Positions 6,975 through 63,702 of a DNA stretch of 64,000 bases are shown piece by piece (the first letter of the stretch is position 1; each line of letters begins with the position of its first letter). Made by a program: the position numbers and the translations under genes. Origin of the DNA: Acidihalobacter ferrooxydans (GTDB lineage Bacteria; Pseudomonadota; Gammaproteobacteria; DSM-5130; Acidihalobacteraceae); NCBI RefSeq assembly GCF_001975725.1, contig NZ_CP019434.1, forward strand, positions 2,869,322 through 2,933,321, given 5' to 3'. The notes under the pieces are model-generated. The model was not told the DNA's origin, searched no databases, and saw only the letters and a program-made list of their open reading frames with translations.

Positions 6975-7412
6975 GGTGGATGCGCTGCGCTTATCCACCC
7001 TACACAGAATCAGCCCCAACGCTTGCTGTTATGTAGGGTGGATAAGCAACGCGCATCCACCGCAGAAGCCCAGACGCACCACCAAGACCATCCCGCACGA
7101 CAGCGCCAATCCTTACCACCCAACGCAGTATCCAACCCGAATGGTCCCGCAAGAGCCCATGGCGCGATGCCAGAGCCTGGCCCGGTGGATGCGCTGCGCT
7201 TATCCACCCTACACAGAATCAGCCCCAACGCTTGCTGTTATGTAGGGTGGATAAGCAACGCGCGTCCACCGCAGAGGCCCAGCGCAGCACCAAAGCTATC
7301 TCGCACGAAACCGCCCGGCCTCACCACCCAACGCAGCATCCAACCCGGATGATCGCGCAAAAGCCCATGGCGCGATCTCATAGCCTGGGCCGGTGGATGC
7401 GCTGCGCTTATC
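6975..7412. repeat. Tandem 209-bp repeat built of GTAGGGTGGATAAGC hairpins (family D)
   Basis: Two direct copies, 6975-7183 (209 bp) and 7184-7391 (208 bp), are followed by a 21-bp start of a third at 7392-7412. Each unit opens with GGTGGATGCGCTGCGCTTAT leading into CCACCCTAC, and about 55 bp later has the reverse arm GTAGGGTGGATAAGC plus GCATCCACC, so each unit forms a large hairpin. A stray AAGGTGGATAAGC at 6956 is a further arm. This matches the GTAGGGTGG-type palindromic repeats common in many proteobacteria. With the spacers it fills almost all of the 605-bp minC-minD gap. No gene is supported inside. Confidence 0.85.
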
Positions 7413-7441
7413 CTCTCATTGGGGTTTGTGCGCCCTTTCCC

Positions 7442-13706: not shown

Positions 13707-13763
13707 CCCGAATGTTTCACACATTCCCGGCGCGATAGCGGCACTCGTTATGAAACATTCGGG
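13707..13763 (-). repeat. Mini copy of palindromic element family A
   Basis: A 57-bp element with 13-bp perfect terminal inverted repeats CCCGAATGTTTCA / TGAAACATTCGGG. Read on the minus strand it equals the left 35-40 bp of the full element joined to its right end, with the central 100 bp missing, so it is an internal-deletion derivative. TGAA sits in direct orientation on both flanks and could be a target duplication. It lies between the divergent MATE and GST genes. Confidence 0.8.
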
Positions 13764-17793: not shown

Positions 17794-17927
17794 GGTTGTT
17801 GTTGTCGCTCAGACGTGTGCGAGAGACGGATTGCCGGTCGTGAAAGCACAGTTTACAGCGCGTAAATGAGCACAAGAGTCCGATCTTGACGCCCTGCCGT
17901 CCCGCAGGAGCAGACAACAACGTCTTG
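17794..17927 (+). repeat. Palindromic element family C, copy 1
   Basis: About 134 bp with terminal inverted repeats GTTGTTGTC (17798-17806) and GACAACAAC (17913-17921). It aligns along its whole length, in the same orientation, with 39245-39380. The shared core includes CAGCGCGTnAATGAGCACAA followed by a GATyTTGACGC block. It lies between the 3' end of the hemerythrin gene and the 5' end of apbC; the rest of this 428-bp gap holds no recognisable gene, only a C8 run near 17980. Confidence 0.8.
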
Positions 17928-19790: not shown

Positions 19791-19940
19791 CCCGGACATG
19801 TCGCAAATTTTCTCCGCTCTCGCGGGTCTCTTGATTCCACAAGGGATAGTTCCCCAGTCGGCCATCATCACCGATACGCCGCTCCTTCGGCGTTCTCTTA
19901 TGAACTCCTATCCGGCGCGATATCTTGTGCAGCATCCGGG
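19791..19940 (-). repeat. Palindromic element family A, copy between convergent genes
   Basis: About 150 bp, minus orientation, starting one base after the regulator's stop codon and ending 6 bp before the convergent GcvH-like stop, so it fills the whole gap. Ends are degenerate (CCCGGACATG / CATCCGGG). Conserved internal blocks are CTCTTGATTCCACAAGGGAT, CATCACCGATACGCCGCTCC and CTATCCGGCGCGATA. Its position suggests a role as a two-way terminator. Confidence 0.85.
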
Positions 19941-21639: not shown

Positions 21640-21640
21640 C

Positions 21641-21799
21641 CTGAGTGTTTCACAAATTCCCACCGATCTCGCGGACCGCTTGATTCCACAAGGCATACGC
21701 CAGCAATCGGCCATTATCGCCGCTTCGCTGCTGCTTCGAAGTTCCCTTGTGAATCCCGTACCCGGCACGATAGCAGCGCACGTTTATGCAACGCCCGGC
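21641..21799 (-). repeat. Palindromic element family A copy upstream of metR
   Basis: About 159 bp, minus orientation, one base after the YeaO-like stop. The left end CCTGAGTGTTTCACAA is close to consensus; the right end is diverged. The inner inverted repeat reads CACAAGGGA / TGCCTTGTG on the minus strand, with one mismatch. It ends about 23 bp before the metR start codon, so any metR promoter must lie inside or beside it. Confidence 0.8.
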
Positions 21800-31152: not shown

Positions 31153-31370
31153 TTGCCGGATCTCTCCGCTCCAATCGGGTCGCGTCCTGCATGCCACCTC
31201 GCTCCACCCCATGTGCATGGAATCCGGACATTCCGCTGTTGCCGCCCGCAGCATGGATCGCCGCTCCATGGGATGCAATCACCGTGCATCCTTCGCGGAT
31301 TTCCTGCGTCTACTTGCATACCCAGGCCTGAACCGGAGCCGCACTAAAGTCACAGCCCGCCGTTCGCGGG

Positions 31371-31516
31371 TCGGCTATCGTGCGGTGTCGCGTCGGATAG
31401 TGTTTTCACAAGGGATCTCAGAAGGGCGGCGTGTCGGCGATGACGGTCGACCGATGATATATCCCTTGGGGAATCAGGAGACCCGTGAGATCGGCGGTCG
31501 TTGTGAAACAGTCGGA
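31371..31516 (+). repeat. Palindromic element family A copy, 5' end decayed
   Basis: About 146 bp, plus orientation. The internal blocks are conserved (TCGCGTCGGATAGTGTTTTC then ACAAGGGAT; ATATCCCTTGG; CGGCGGTCGTTGTGAAACA), but the left terminus has lost CCCGAATG and the right ends in GTCGG. Inner arms CACAAGGGAT / ATCCCTTGgG have one mismatch. It ends about 100 bp before the flavoprotein start. The whole 493-bp gap 31123-31615 contains only this element and the hairpin above. Confidence 0.8.
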
Positions 31517-36181: not shown

Positions 36182-36341
36182 GAGCCTGTCGGACCTGGAG
36201 GAGCGAAGCGAGGCGAGTGGGGAATGGTGACCAGTTTCTCGCTCTTTTGAGGATGAGTGGTTCTATTCGACGAAAAGAGCGTGGAAATGGGCCCATTACC
36301 CCACCGCCGCAGCCGATTCTTTCCCAGTCCGACAGGCTCCT
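36180..36341 (+). repeat. Palindromic element family B, complete copy
   Basis: 162 bp with 15-bp perfect terminal inverted repeats AGGAGCCTGTCGGAC (36180-36194) and GTCCGACAGGCTCCT (36327-36341). An inner inverted repeat CGCTCTTTT / AAAAGAGCG lies near the middle. It begins inside the sulP stop codon and is followed 4 bp later by a family-A element. It has the structure of a MITE or large palindromic unit. No coding potential is supported. Confidence 0.85.
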
Positions 36342-36345
36342 AGCC

Positions 36346-36492
36346 CCCGGATGTTTCACAACGCGTGCTGATCACGCCGGATAGTGTTTTCACATGGGAC
36401 ACCGAAGGAACGGCGTATCGGTGATTACGGTCGACTGTGGCAATACCCCTTGTAGAATCAAGAGACCAGCGAGACCGGCGGCGCACTTGTGC
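36346..36492 (+). repeat. Palindromic element family A copy next to element B
   Basis: About 147 bp, plus orientation, left end CCCGGATGTTTCACAACG intact and right end decayed after GACCGGCGGCGC. The inner arms are mismatched (CACATGGGA / CCCCTTGTA). Together with element B it fills most of the 444-bp gap between sulP and the rhodanese operon. The last 130 bp before the first rhodanese hold no gene and should carry the promoter. Confidence 0.8.
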
Positions 36493-36625
36493 CACCCATC
36501 GATCCCCGATAACGCCGGCTCGACCAGCGCGAACGGGCCGCTCAATCCCCCTCGCCCCTGCATCCTTTCATAACGCTTCACGTCATCGTAAAGGTCAATC
36601 CCTGACATGACTTGAGGAGCGTTTC

Positions 36626-38160: not shown

Positions 38161-38316
38161 CCCGAATGTTTCACAGATTCATGCTGATAGCGCGCCGGAT
38201 ATTGATTTCACAAGGGACACCGAAGGAACGGCGTATCGGTGATGACGACCGACTGAGGAAATATCCCTTGTGGAATCAAGAGCCCCGCGAGATCGGCGGT
38301 CGTTGTGAAACATTCG
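38161..38316 (+). repeat. Palindromic element family A, reference copy
   Basis: 156 bp, plus orientation. Outer arms CCCGAATGTTTCACA / TGTGAAACATTCG; inner arms CACAAGGGA (38209-38217) / TCCCTTGTG (38264-38272); central arms CGGT (38237-38240) / ACCG (38248-38251). Drawn out, the element folds as one long imperfect hairpin with three nested stems. It lies between the TSUP gene and the transglycosylase gene, ending 96 bp before the latter's start. Confidence 0.88.
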
Positions 38317-38412
38317 CGATAGCACCCTGAGGGTTGAGACATCGCCACCAACACGCCATGATGTGCCTATAAGCAATAATCGATACACCAATAAAATACT
38401 CAGGAGCACCCG

Positions 38413-39244: not shown

Positions 39245-39380
39245 GGGGCTGTTGGCGTCGCTCAAGCGCGTACGAAAGAAGGATTGTCGGGCGAAAAAGC
39301 GCAGCTCACAGCGCGTCAATGAGCACAAGAGCCTGATTTTGACGCACTGGCGTGCCGCATGAGTAGACAACAACAGCCTT
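39245..39380 (+). repeat. Palindromic element family C, copy 2
   Basis: About 136 bp with terminal arms GGCTGTTG (39247-39254) / CAACAGCC (39371-39378). It aligns with 17794-17927 in the same orientation. It fills the full gap between the convergent transglycosylase stop (39243) and RhtB stop (39382), leaving one base on each side, so it probably also serves as a two-way terminator. Confidence 0.8.
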
Positions 39381-41842: not shown

Positions 41843-41945
41843 CAGGAACCTGTCGAACCTGAAGGATCGCAGCGAGGCGAACGGGGCATCGAAACCATTA
41901 TCCCATCGCCGCAGCCGATGCTTTCAAAGTCCGGCAGACTCCCAG
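41843..41945 (+). repeat. Palindromic element family B, internally deleted copy
   Basis: About 103 bp. Left end CAGGAACCTGTCGAACCT, then CGCAGCGAGGCGAACGGGG, a junction, and the right block CATTATCCCATCGCCGCAGC and AGTCCGGCAGACTCCCAGG. The middle 60 bp of the complete copy (36180-36341) are missing and the ends have diverged. It lies in the 309-bp gap upstream of the peptide-binding protein gene; the remainder of that gap holds no gene. Confidence 0.75.
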
Positions 41946-41980
41946 GCTCCACCTGACGCACCGCCGAACGGGAGAGACCC

Positions 41981-54294: not shown

Positions 54295-54453
54295 CCCGAA
54301 TGTTTCATAACGAGTGCTGATATCGCGTCGGATAGTGTTTTCACAAGGGGATTTCAGAAGGAGCGGCGTATCGGTGATGACGGCCGACTGAGGAAATACC
54401 CCTTGTGGAATCAAGAGACCCGCGAGAGCGGCGGTCGTTATGAAGCATTCGGG
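54295..54453 (+). repeat. Palindromic element family A, complete copy upstream of mscS
   Basis: 159 bp, plus orientation, ends CCCGAATGTTTCATAACGA / TCGTTATGAAGCATTCGGG. The inner arms are CACAAGGGG / CCCCTTGTG, differing from the 38-kb copy by a matched pair of changes. It lies between divergent recC and mscS and ends 19 bp before the mscS ATG, so it will form the leader of the mscS mRNA or hold its promoter. Confidence 0.88.
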
Positions 54454-59738: not shown

Positions 59739-60006
59739 GCCTGTTAGCAGAGAAACAGATGGCTATCGATTCCTCCATGCCTGCTTGCAAAGGCCGCCGG
59801 GTTGGCTGACCATCTATCGGCGCCCGAGCGCTCTGGCTTTCACCGACCCCGGATATTTCTGTAGTGTGCTGCTATCGCGCCGGATAGGAGTTTCACAAGA
59901 TACACCGCAGGAAAGGCGGTCGAAAAAGAGCGGGTTGTGGGCCCATTATCCCATCGCCTATTATCCCATCGCCGCAGCCGATTCTTTCCAAGTCCGACAG
60001 GCTCCT
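59738..60006 (+). repeat. Composite repeat: family B with a family-A half inside
   Basis: Starting at the ugpC stop, AGCCTGT matches the left tip of element B. After about 100 bp without a match, 59848-59920 is the left half of element A (CCCGGATATTTCTGTAGTGT, GCGCCGGATA, TTTCACAAGATACACCG). Then 59921-60006 is the right half of element B (AAAGAGCGG, GGGCCCATTATCCCATCGCC, GATTCTTTCC, GTCCGACAGGCTCCTGG), with a 15-bp tandem duplication of the ATTATCCCATCGCC block. This looks like an A copy inserted into a B copy, later eroded. The 324-bp gap holds nothing else. Confidence 0.75.
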
Positions 60007-60062
60007 GGACACCCGGCAAGCTTGCGAACCGGGATGACCGCCCATTCCATGAAAGGATTCTC

Positions 60063-63529: not shown

Positions 63530-63687
63530 CCCGAATGTCTCACAACGACCACCGATCTTGCGGGTCTTTTGATTCCACAAGAGATATTTCCTCAGTCGGC
63601 CGTCATCACCGATACGCCGCTCCTACGGAAATTCTCTTGTGAAAACACTATCCGGCGCGACATCAGCACTCGCTGTGAAACATCCGG
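63530..63687 (-). repeat. Palindromic element family A copy upstream of yicC
   Basis: 158 bp, minus orientation, ends CCCGAATGTCTCACAACGA / CGCTGTGAAACATCCGG. Inner arms on the minus strand are CACAAGAGA / TCTCTTGTG, again perfectly paired though different in sequence from the copies at 38 and 54 kb. It ends 15 bp before the yicC ATG and lies in the 300-bp gap between divergent rph and yicC; the rest of that gap (63403-63529) should hold the rph promoter and has no gene. Confidence 0.88.
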
Positions 63688-63702
63688 ATCAGGGAGAGTA
63701 AT

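Follow-up and report, generated by a model that had tools for sequence, protein, structure and literature searches.

An abundant miniature transposable element of Acidihalobacter ferrooxydans with IS1380-type ends and a fold conserved on one strand across bacterial genera

Does a short palindromic repeat scattered along a bacterial chromosome fold because its shape is selected, or only because its ends are inverted? Miniature inverted-repeat transposable elements (MITEs) of bacteria are usually seen as transposon debris, their hairpins being a by-product of the inverted repeats. MITEs with hairpin transcripts nevertheless constitute a known kind, which includes Correia/NEMIS, ERIC, BOX/RUP and QMITE (PMC2229807, PMC3049150, PMC10969869). 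A stretch of 64,000 nucleotides of the Acidihalobacter ferrooxydans chromosome (hereafter the window) raises this question at position 38,161. There, the original prediction had described one of nine copies of a roughly 157-bp element whose nested stems seemed to change in a compensatory manner, and had proposed either a structured leader or terminator RNA or a hairpin mobile element spreading as folded DNA.

Copies, ends and the IS1380 partner

All nine positions carry one and the same repeat family, seven as full or nearly full copies, one as a mini copy and one as a truncated copy (Table 1). The inner stems that had been quoted are present (CACAAGGGA/TCCCTTGTG at 38 kb, CACAAGGGG/CCCCTTGTG at 54 kb and, on the minus strand, CACAAGAGA/TCTCTTGTG at 63 kb), and so are the outer stem variants CACA/TGTG and CATA/TATG. 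The right-hand block, described as conserved, is found exactly as quoted at 54 kb and reads GGAATCAAGAGCCCCGCGAG at 38 kb. Coordinates are those given by model R1, except for the copy at 59848, which was detected by blastn and nhmmer only.

Table 1. Copies of the element in the window and parts of the reference copy
Feature	Position in the window	Strand	Remarks
Reference copy, ~160-bp MITE with IS1380-type ends, RNA-like (+) strand	38161..38318	+	R1 E 4e-41; cross-species RNA-core model R2 E 1e-21
Left terminal inverted repeat CCCGAATGTTTCA	38161..38173	+	Common to resident IS1380 ends CCCGGATATTTCA
Right terminal inverted repeat, TGAAACATTCGCG on + strand	38306..38318	-	One base off
Inner stem P3, left arm TTTCACAAGGGA	38206..38217	+	Strongest-covarying helix across species
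Inner stem P3, right arm TCCCTTGTGGAA	38264..38275	+	Strongest-covarying helix across species
Full copy	54295..54453	+	R1; of the window copies nearest the genome consensus (96%)
Full copy	63530..63688	-	R1
Copy, right end degraded	36346..36503	+	R1
Copy, left end degraded	31370..31516	+	R1
Copy, small internal deletion	19791..19940	-	R1
Full-length copy, diverged	21640..21799	-	R1
57-bp mini copy, centre deleted, both ends retained	13707..13763	.	R1
Truncated copy, left half only	59848..59918	+	nhmmer E 3e-7, blastn E 9e-9

Other repeats lie in the same window. A separate 58-bp family (CCATTAYCCCATCGCCGCAGCCGATTCTTTCC...) occupies 36291-36348, 41893-41950 and 59956-60013; one of its copies abuts the MITE at 36346 and another comes after the truncated copy at 59848. 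A different inverted repeat (GGTGGATGCGC...GCGCATCCACC) is present at 6975-7413 as two tandem copies about 209 bp apart and 85-98% identical, and a pair of 128-bp repeats, 80% identical, is located at 17794-17921 and 39247-39374, where the element models give no match.

The 3,448,835-base genome (one contig) contains about 140 distinct copies, corresponding to 145 model matches, a few of which are the same copy matched on the opposite strand. The end motif has 303 matches in the genome versus 6 for the reversed pattern, and the abundance of the family is far beyond chance. The elements are 157-161 bp long (consensus of 159 nt) and start with CCCG(A/G)AT(A/G)TTTCA..., that is CCCG(A/G)ATGTTTCA, the reverse complement being found at the other end. 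Of 87 copies, 20 lie between exact 4-bp target duplications, a number that drops to 0-2 in other registers, and the preferred target in this genome is YTAR (TTAA, CTAA, TCAA, TTAG). In other species, 79 of 126 elements have 4-bp duplications, mostly TTAA and CTAG. With terminal inverted repeats, a duplication of fixed length, no transposase gene and a high copy number, the element is a MITE, a non-autonomous DNA transposon. A coding role was rejected, as most elements have stops in every frame. Searches with short query sequences found no plasmid- or phage-borne elements.

Two IS1380-family elements reside elsewhere in the genome, at 1619380-1620949 and 3194256-3195826, the latter being frameshifted. 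Their transposase matches NCBIfam NF033539 (E 1e-120), and a PDB search with it returned no match. These elements end in CCCGGATATTTCACAA... (comparison with the MITE ends: CCCGGATATTTCACAA versus CCCGRATGTTTCAYNA), and CTAG duplications flank both of them, which is the same target and duplication length as for the MITE. IS1380 and piggyBac, which are distant relatives, have 5'-CC..GG-3' termini and 4-bp duplications in common (PMC10045372). However, the MITE carries no transposase gene and resembles the resident IS1380 only over the terminal ~16 bp, with nothing internal in common. It is therefore not an IS1380 deletion derivative, and the reading as a remnant of a known IS end, which the original prediction had named as a possible refutation, was rejected because the subterminal sequence is not shared.

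In Endozoicomonas ascidiicola, the IS1380 ends are identical to those of the element over 16 bp (CCCGGATATTTCATAA...TTATGAAATATCCGGG). Since the ends and duplications match IS1380 here, and the ends match in E. ascidiicola, we infer on good support that the MITE is mobilised by an IS1380-type transposase. Nitrosomonas sp. Nm132 has IS1380 transposases, and matching ends were not found near those examined; 7 of the 15 carrier genomes searched, several of which are draft metagenome-assembled genomes (MAGs), gave no IS1380 transposase match at all. The matching ends, together with the 4-bp duplications and the IS1380 partners, argue for ordinary DDE transposition of double-stranded DNA. Thus, the proposal of a hairpin mobile element was right as to mobility, whereas its spread as folded DNA is not supported, in view both of these features and of a wobble bias towards one strand that is RNA-like (see below).

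Covariation within and between genomes

The consensus RNA folds with -84.7 kcal/mol (z -10.8), compared with -63.5 for the consensus of the opposite strand. We aligned 86 copies from this genome and tested their column pairs against a null in which the substitutions are redistributed over the tree (own script, R-scape-like). None of the stem pairs reached E<0.05, and the covariation above expectation anticipated from the copies of this genome was thus not found by this approximation of R-scape. Double changes restoring pairing and those not restoring it stood at 81:92, against 60:67 in shuffles, both being raised at the same ratio. Rare variants (in three copies or fewer) read on the + strand comprised 47 G-U and 63 A-C. 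Broken pairs amounted to ∼0.83 of the random expectation, copies read in the + and - directions did not differ, and the arms of the elements were often mosaic. With a simple gene caller, the copies had no orientation bias relative to co-directional neighbouring genes (36 same, 28 opposite, P 0.38), and their structure decayed equally in both directions of transcription. These last two observations indicate no visible effect on host transcripts, and the lack of an orientation preference leaves the leader or terminator proposal without support. Taken with the null covariation and the equal G-U and A-C counts, they make single inserted copies look neutral.

A different picture was obtained across species. 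Named genomes were scanned for two ends ~160 bp apart with a pattern that fixed the ends only and did not select for the P3 and P4 stems; this gave at least 114 loci, from which 126 elements were read out. The same core is present in 112 of them. Its carriers are Nitrosomonas, Nitrosospira, Sulfuricella, Thioalkalivibrio, a Rhodanobacteraceae MAG, Salinisphaera and Endozoicomonas, together with Hydrogenovibrio, Guyparkeria, Halothiobacillus and a Nitrospirota MAG, the last possibly a binning error. The search of the genome and its relatives suggested at the outset has therefore yielded, besides the copies here, homologues of ~160 bp in other genera.

Fourteen matches to the end pattern (Desulfoluna, Opitutaceae, Microbulbifer and others) were left out, as they have the ends and lack the core by the motif test. 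Those of Desulfoluna, Opitutaceae and Desulfobacterales (L149, L161, L213, L216, L218, L225, L229, L235) are ~145-160 bp long, with the same IS1380-type ends and unrelated interiors, and probably represent further MITEs belonging to the same transposase group. In Microbulbifer litoralis (L186:159-317), a reduced relative with a short hairpin near one end appears to retain only the first conserved loop pair (CACGATGATCGCGC...AAGCGAGGGCGTGG).

From lineage to lineage, the inner stem reads ATTAATA/TATTAAT, GCCGCACA/TGTGCGGT, CGCTCTAA/TTAGAGCG or TTTCACAA/TTGTGGAA, wholly different and still paired. In an alignment of 28 sequences (A3), 28 of the 53 pairs have double changes and 96.7% of the cells are paired; both sides have changed in 197 cells, whereas shuffles gave 63 such cells and slid structures 17-35. 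The mean APC-corrected covariation of stem pairs was 8.6, against 0.02 +/- 0.35 under a tree null that was home-made rather than R-scape itself, and of the five column pairs that reached E<=0.05 under this null, four belonged to stems. Covariation outside the ends hence exceeded the phylogenetic expectation of the home-made null. We did not count that of the terminal helix as evidence, because the fitting of both ends to one transposase provides another explanation. While the stems change, the loops are conserved (UGAUGAU-CGC-GCAGGA facing GACAAG-CGA-GGGC, and GAAGGAG facing CCGACUGAG). Selection on the folded form, as first proposed, is thus borne out across species and in a strand-specific manner (see below), although the nine copies on which the proposal was based give no proof of it. 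The within-genome test alone would have wrongly discarded it.

Model R2, which consists of the core without the ends, matched 38 of the 369 sampled genomes of the class (30 of 271 genera), a patchy presence; in a sample of the phylum, it also matched many genomes of a different class, mostly of one family. Many carrier genomes are draft MAGs. Copies per genome reach at least 150 in Nitrosomonas sp. Nm132, 138 in the Rhodanobacteraceae MAG, 39 in Hydrogenovibrio halophilus, 27 in Salinisphaera sp. G21_0 and 21 in T. sulfidiphilus, and the sister species almost lacks the element, with 3 high-similarity matches. The ends vary among lineages (CCCGCATTTCTCACC, CCCACCTTTCTTACC, ACCGACATTGG) and the core persists, so that transposase binding alone would not account for the core. 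One core-bearing element (L315:240-400) has quite different ends (ACCGACATTGG...) and adjoins TTAA, which suggests that the core moves between transposase types.

Strand bias and competing explanations

An A-C mismatch is a G-U pair on the other strand, so that the two counts reveal which strand is kept folded. Elements were oriented through the core motif and not by folding. On the consensus pairs, G-U outnumbered A-C by 108:11, and by 90:7 without the terminal helix, where composition predicts 1.3:1. The ratio was 143:27 with a strand-symmetric fold, 46:8 on the pairs found from both strands and, with a weaker bias, 57:33 on pairs derived from the opposite strand. The + strand was the better-folding one in 28 of 28 sequences with RNA parameters. 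Out of sample, at loci outside the alignment, all 54 elements had more G-U than A-C, and in all 54 the + strand folded better. Upkeep of the palindrome as double-stranded DNA or by copying between arms is unlikely, since either predicts no G-U bias. A folded RNA is the simplest reading of this bias, and a fold kept on one strand across many bacteria fits what would be expected of a working RNA.

The strongest competitor holds that the fold matters as single-stranded DNA, one strand extruding, in the course of replication or transposition, a hairpin read by a recombinase or a host protein, as in integron attC sites or REP/RAYT hairpins. One-strand folding and covarying stems suit it as well, it would produce a similar though weaker wobble bias, DNA parameters favour this strand, too, in 28 of 28 sequences, and a DNA form has been raised for the MRSC-65-2 motif, in the catalogue paragraph devoted to it (PMC11109978). 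Yet the ends, the 4-bp duplications and the IS1380 partners imply double-strand DDE chemistry, and the strands differ more in energy with RNA than with DNA parameters (18.5 versus 5.6 kcal/mol), which leads us to regard this explanation as unlikely. An ordinary palindromic MITE of unselected structure, in which template switching between arms or subfamily ancestry generates the paired changes, would account for what is seen in this genome, namely covariation within the tree null, G-U and A-C arising equally and frequent mosaic arms. However, copying between arms is strand-symmetric and gives no G-U excess, whereas almost all lineages tested have a strong excess; conserved loops with changing stems are moreover the opposite of arm homogenisation. 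This explanation is already largely refuted by the cross-species strand bias, and we give it little credence. Slightly less probable still is a cis-regulatory RNA or terminator useful to the host and kept by selection at many loci. Its attraction is that only 1 of 122 copies lies within a gene (simple gene caller), the rest being intergenic and enriched between divergent genes; the unbiased orientation, the neutral decay of copies, the near absence from the sister species and the patchy presence across the class all speak against it.

On balance, the element is probably an IS1380-mobilised MITE with a one-strand structured RNA, the fold being selected in transposing lineages and the inserted copies being neutral. 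IS1380-family transposases would act in trans, recognising the ends and inserting the element at YTAR with a 4-bp duplication. The part between the ends would encode, on one strand, a structured RNA forming one long hairpin, with helices interrupted by conserved internal loops. Transcription would occur by read-through from outside since, given the terminal helix, no internal promoter could yield the full-length RNA, which would have to be transcribed from an external one. The element would then act as RNA. Our guess is that it may constitute a cis signal in read-through transcripts, with the conserved loops recognised by a conserved host RNA-handling protein, and that this recognition of the folded RNA might raise the survival, tolerance or spread of the element. 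The fold would be maintained by selection on still-transposing lineages and not on single insertions, and old copies would drift because selection acts on active lineages. More tentatively, and with rather more doubt than belief, we raise the possibility of a DNA transposon free of protein genes whose payload is a structured RNA needed for its own spread or tolerance, the core having persisted in at least two classes through changes of the ends, which probably went along with different IS1380-type transposases.

Relation to described families and significance

REP/REPIN are palindromes of 20-40 bp without duplications and with a RAYT partner; membership was rejected for an element of 160 bp with 4-bp duplications. 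In agreement with the statement that no named family matches, Rfam had no hit in the window at gathering threshold, elements from eight lineages were not matched and the best E value of the 38-kb copy was 3.2. The Correia element/NEMIS of Neisseria is comparable as a MITE of ~100-160 bp, with long inverted repeats, a hairpin transcript, intergenic location and high copy number. It differs by its TA-type duplications and its ends (PMC2229807), has been described for Neisseria and is cut by RNase III; the YTAR 4-bp duplications and CCCG... ends led us to reject membership. ERIC/IRU/RU-1 and BOX/RUP are likewise small palindromic repeats with folding transcripts, and ERIC affects mRNA stability in one orientation (PMC2229807), but they have other sequences, ends and hosts, no IS1380 link and, as described, a narrower host range. 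The QMITEs of Coxiella burnetii are MITEs with stable stem-loop transcripts and IS-like ends (PMC10969869), which differ by duplications of 7-9 bp and their restriction to a single species. The CC..GG termini and 4-bp duplications reported for IS1380 (PMC10045372) were those tested in the element here.

The closest description is that of MRSC-65-2 (mobile/repeat sequence candidate), an uncharacterised motif with >20,000 representatives to which a catalogue paragraph is devoted (PMC11109978). According to this paragraph, it has a single long stem with strong covariation, often occurs in dozens of copies and comes from diverse phyla, sometimes near transposases; its '65' numbering is common to Thioalkalivibrio motifs, and the element is also found in Thioalkalivibrio. 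However, its conserved UYCCGG repeat is absent from 26 of our 28 elements, and the paragraph describes it without ends, duplications, a partner family or a strand test (PMC11109978). Compared by description only, the element may be MRSC-65-2; in that case, what would be new relative to the catalogue paragraph is the connection with IS1380, the duplicated targets, the test of strand and the finding that lineages are conserved whereas their inserted copies are neutral.

The fold, loops and strand of this element are conserved over deep time, yet single insertions decay neutrally, so that an RNA appears to be the means by which selection acts on the transposing lineage. This raises a testable question, that of the benefit of an RNA to a mobile element encoding no protein. 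The model also annotates hundreds of intergenic repeats that were so far without a label in nitrifiers, in sulfur oxidisers and in marine symbionts.
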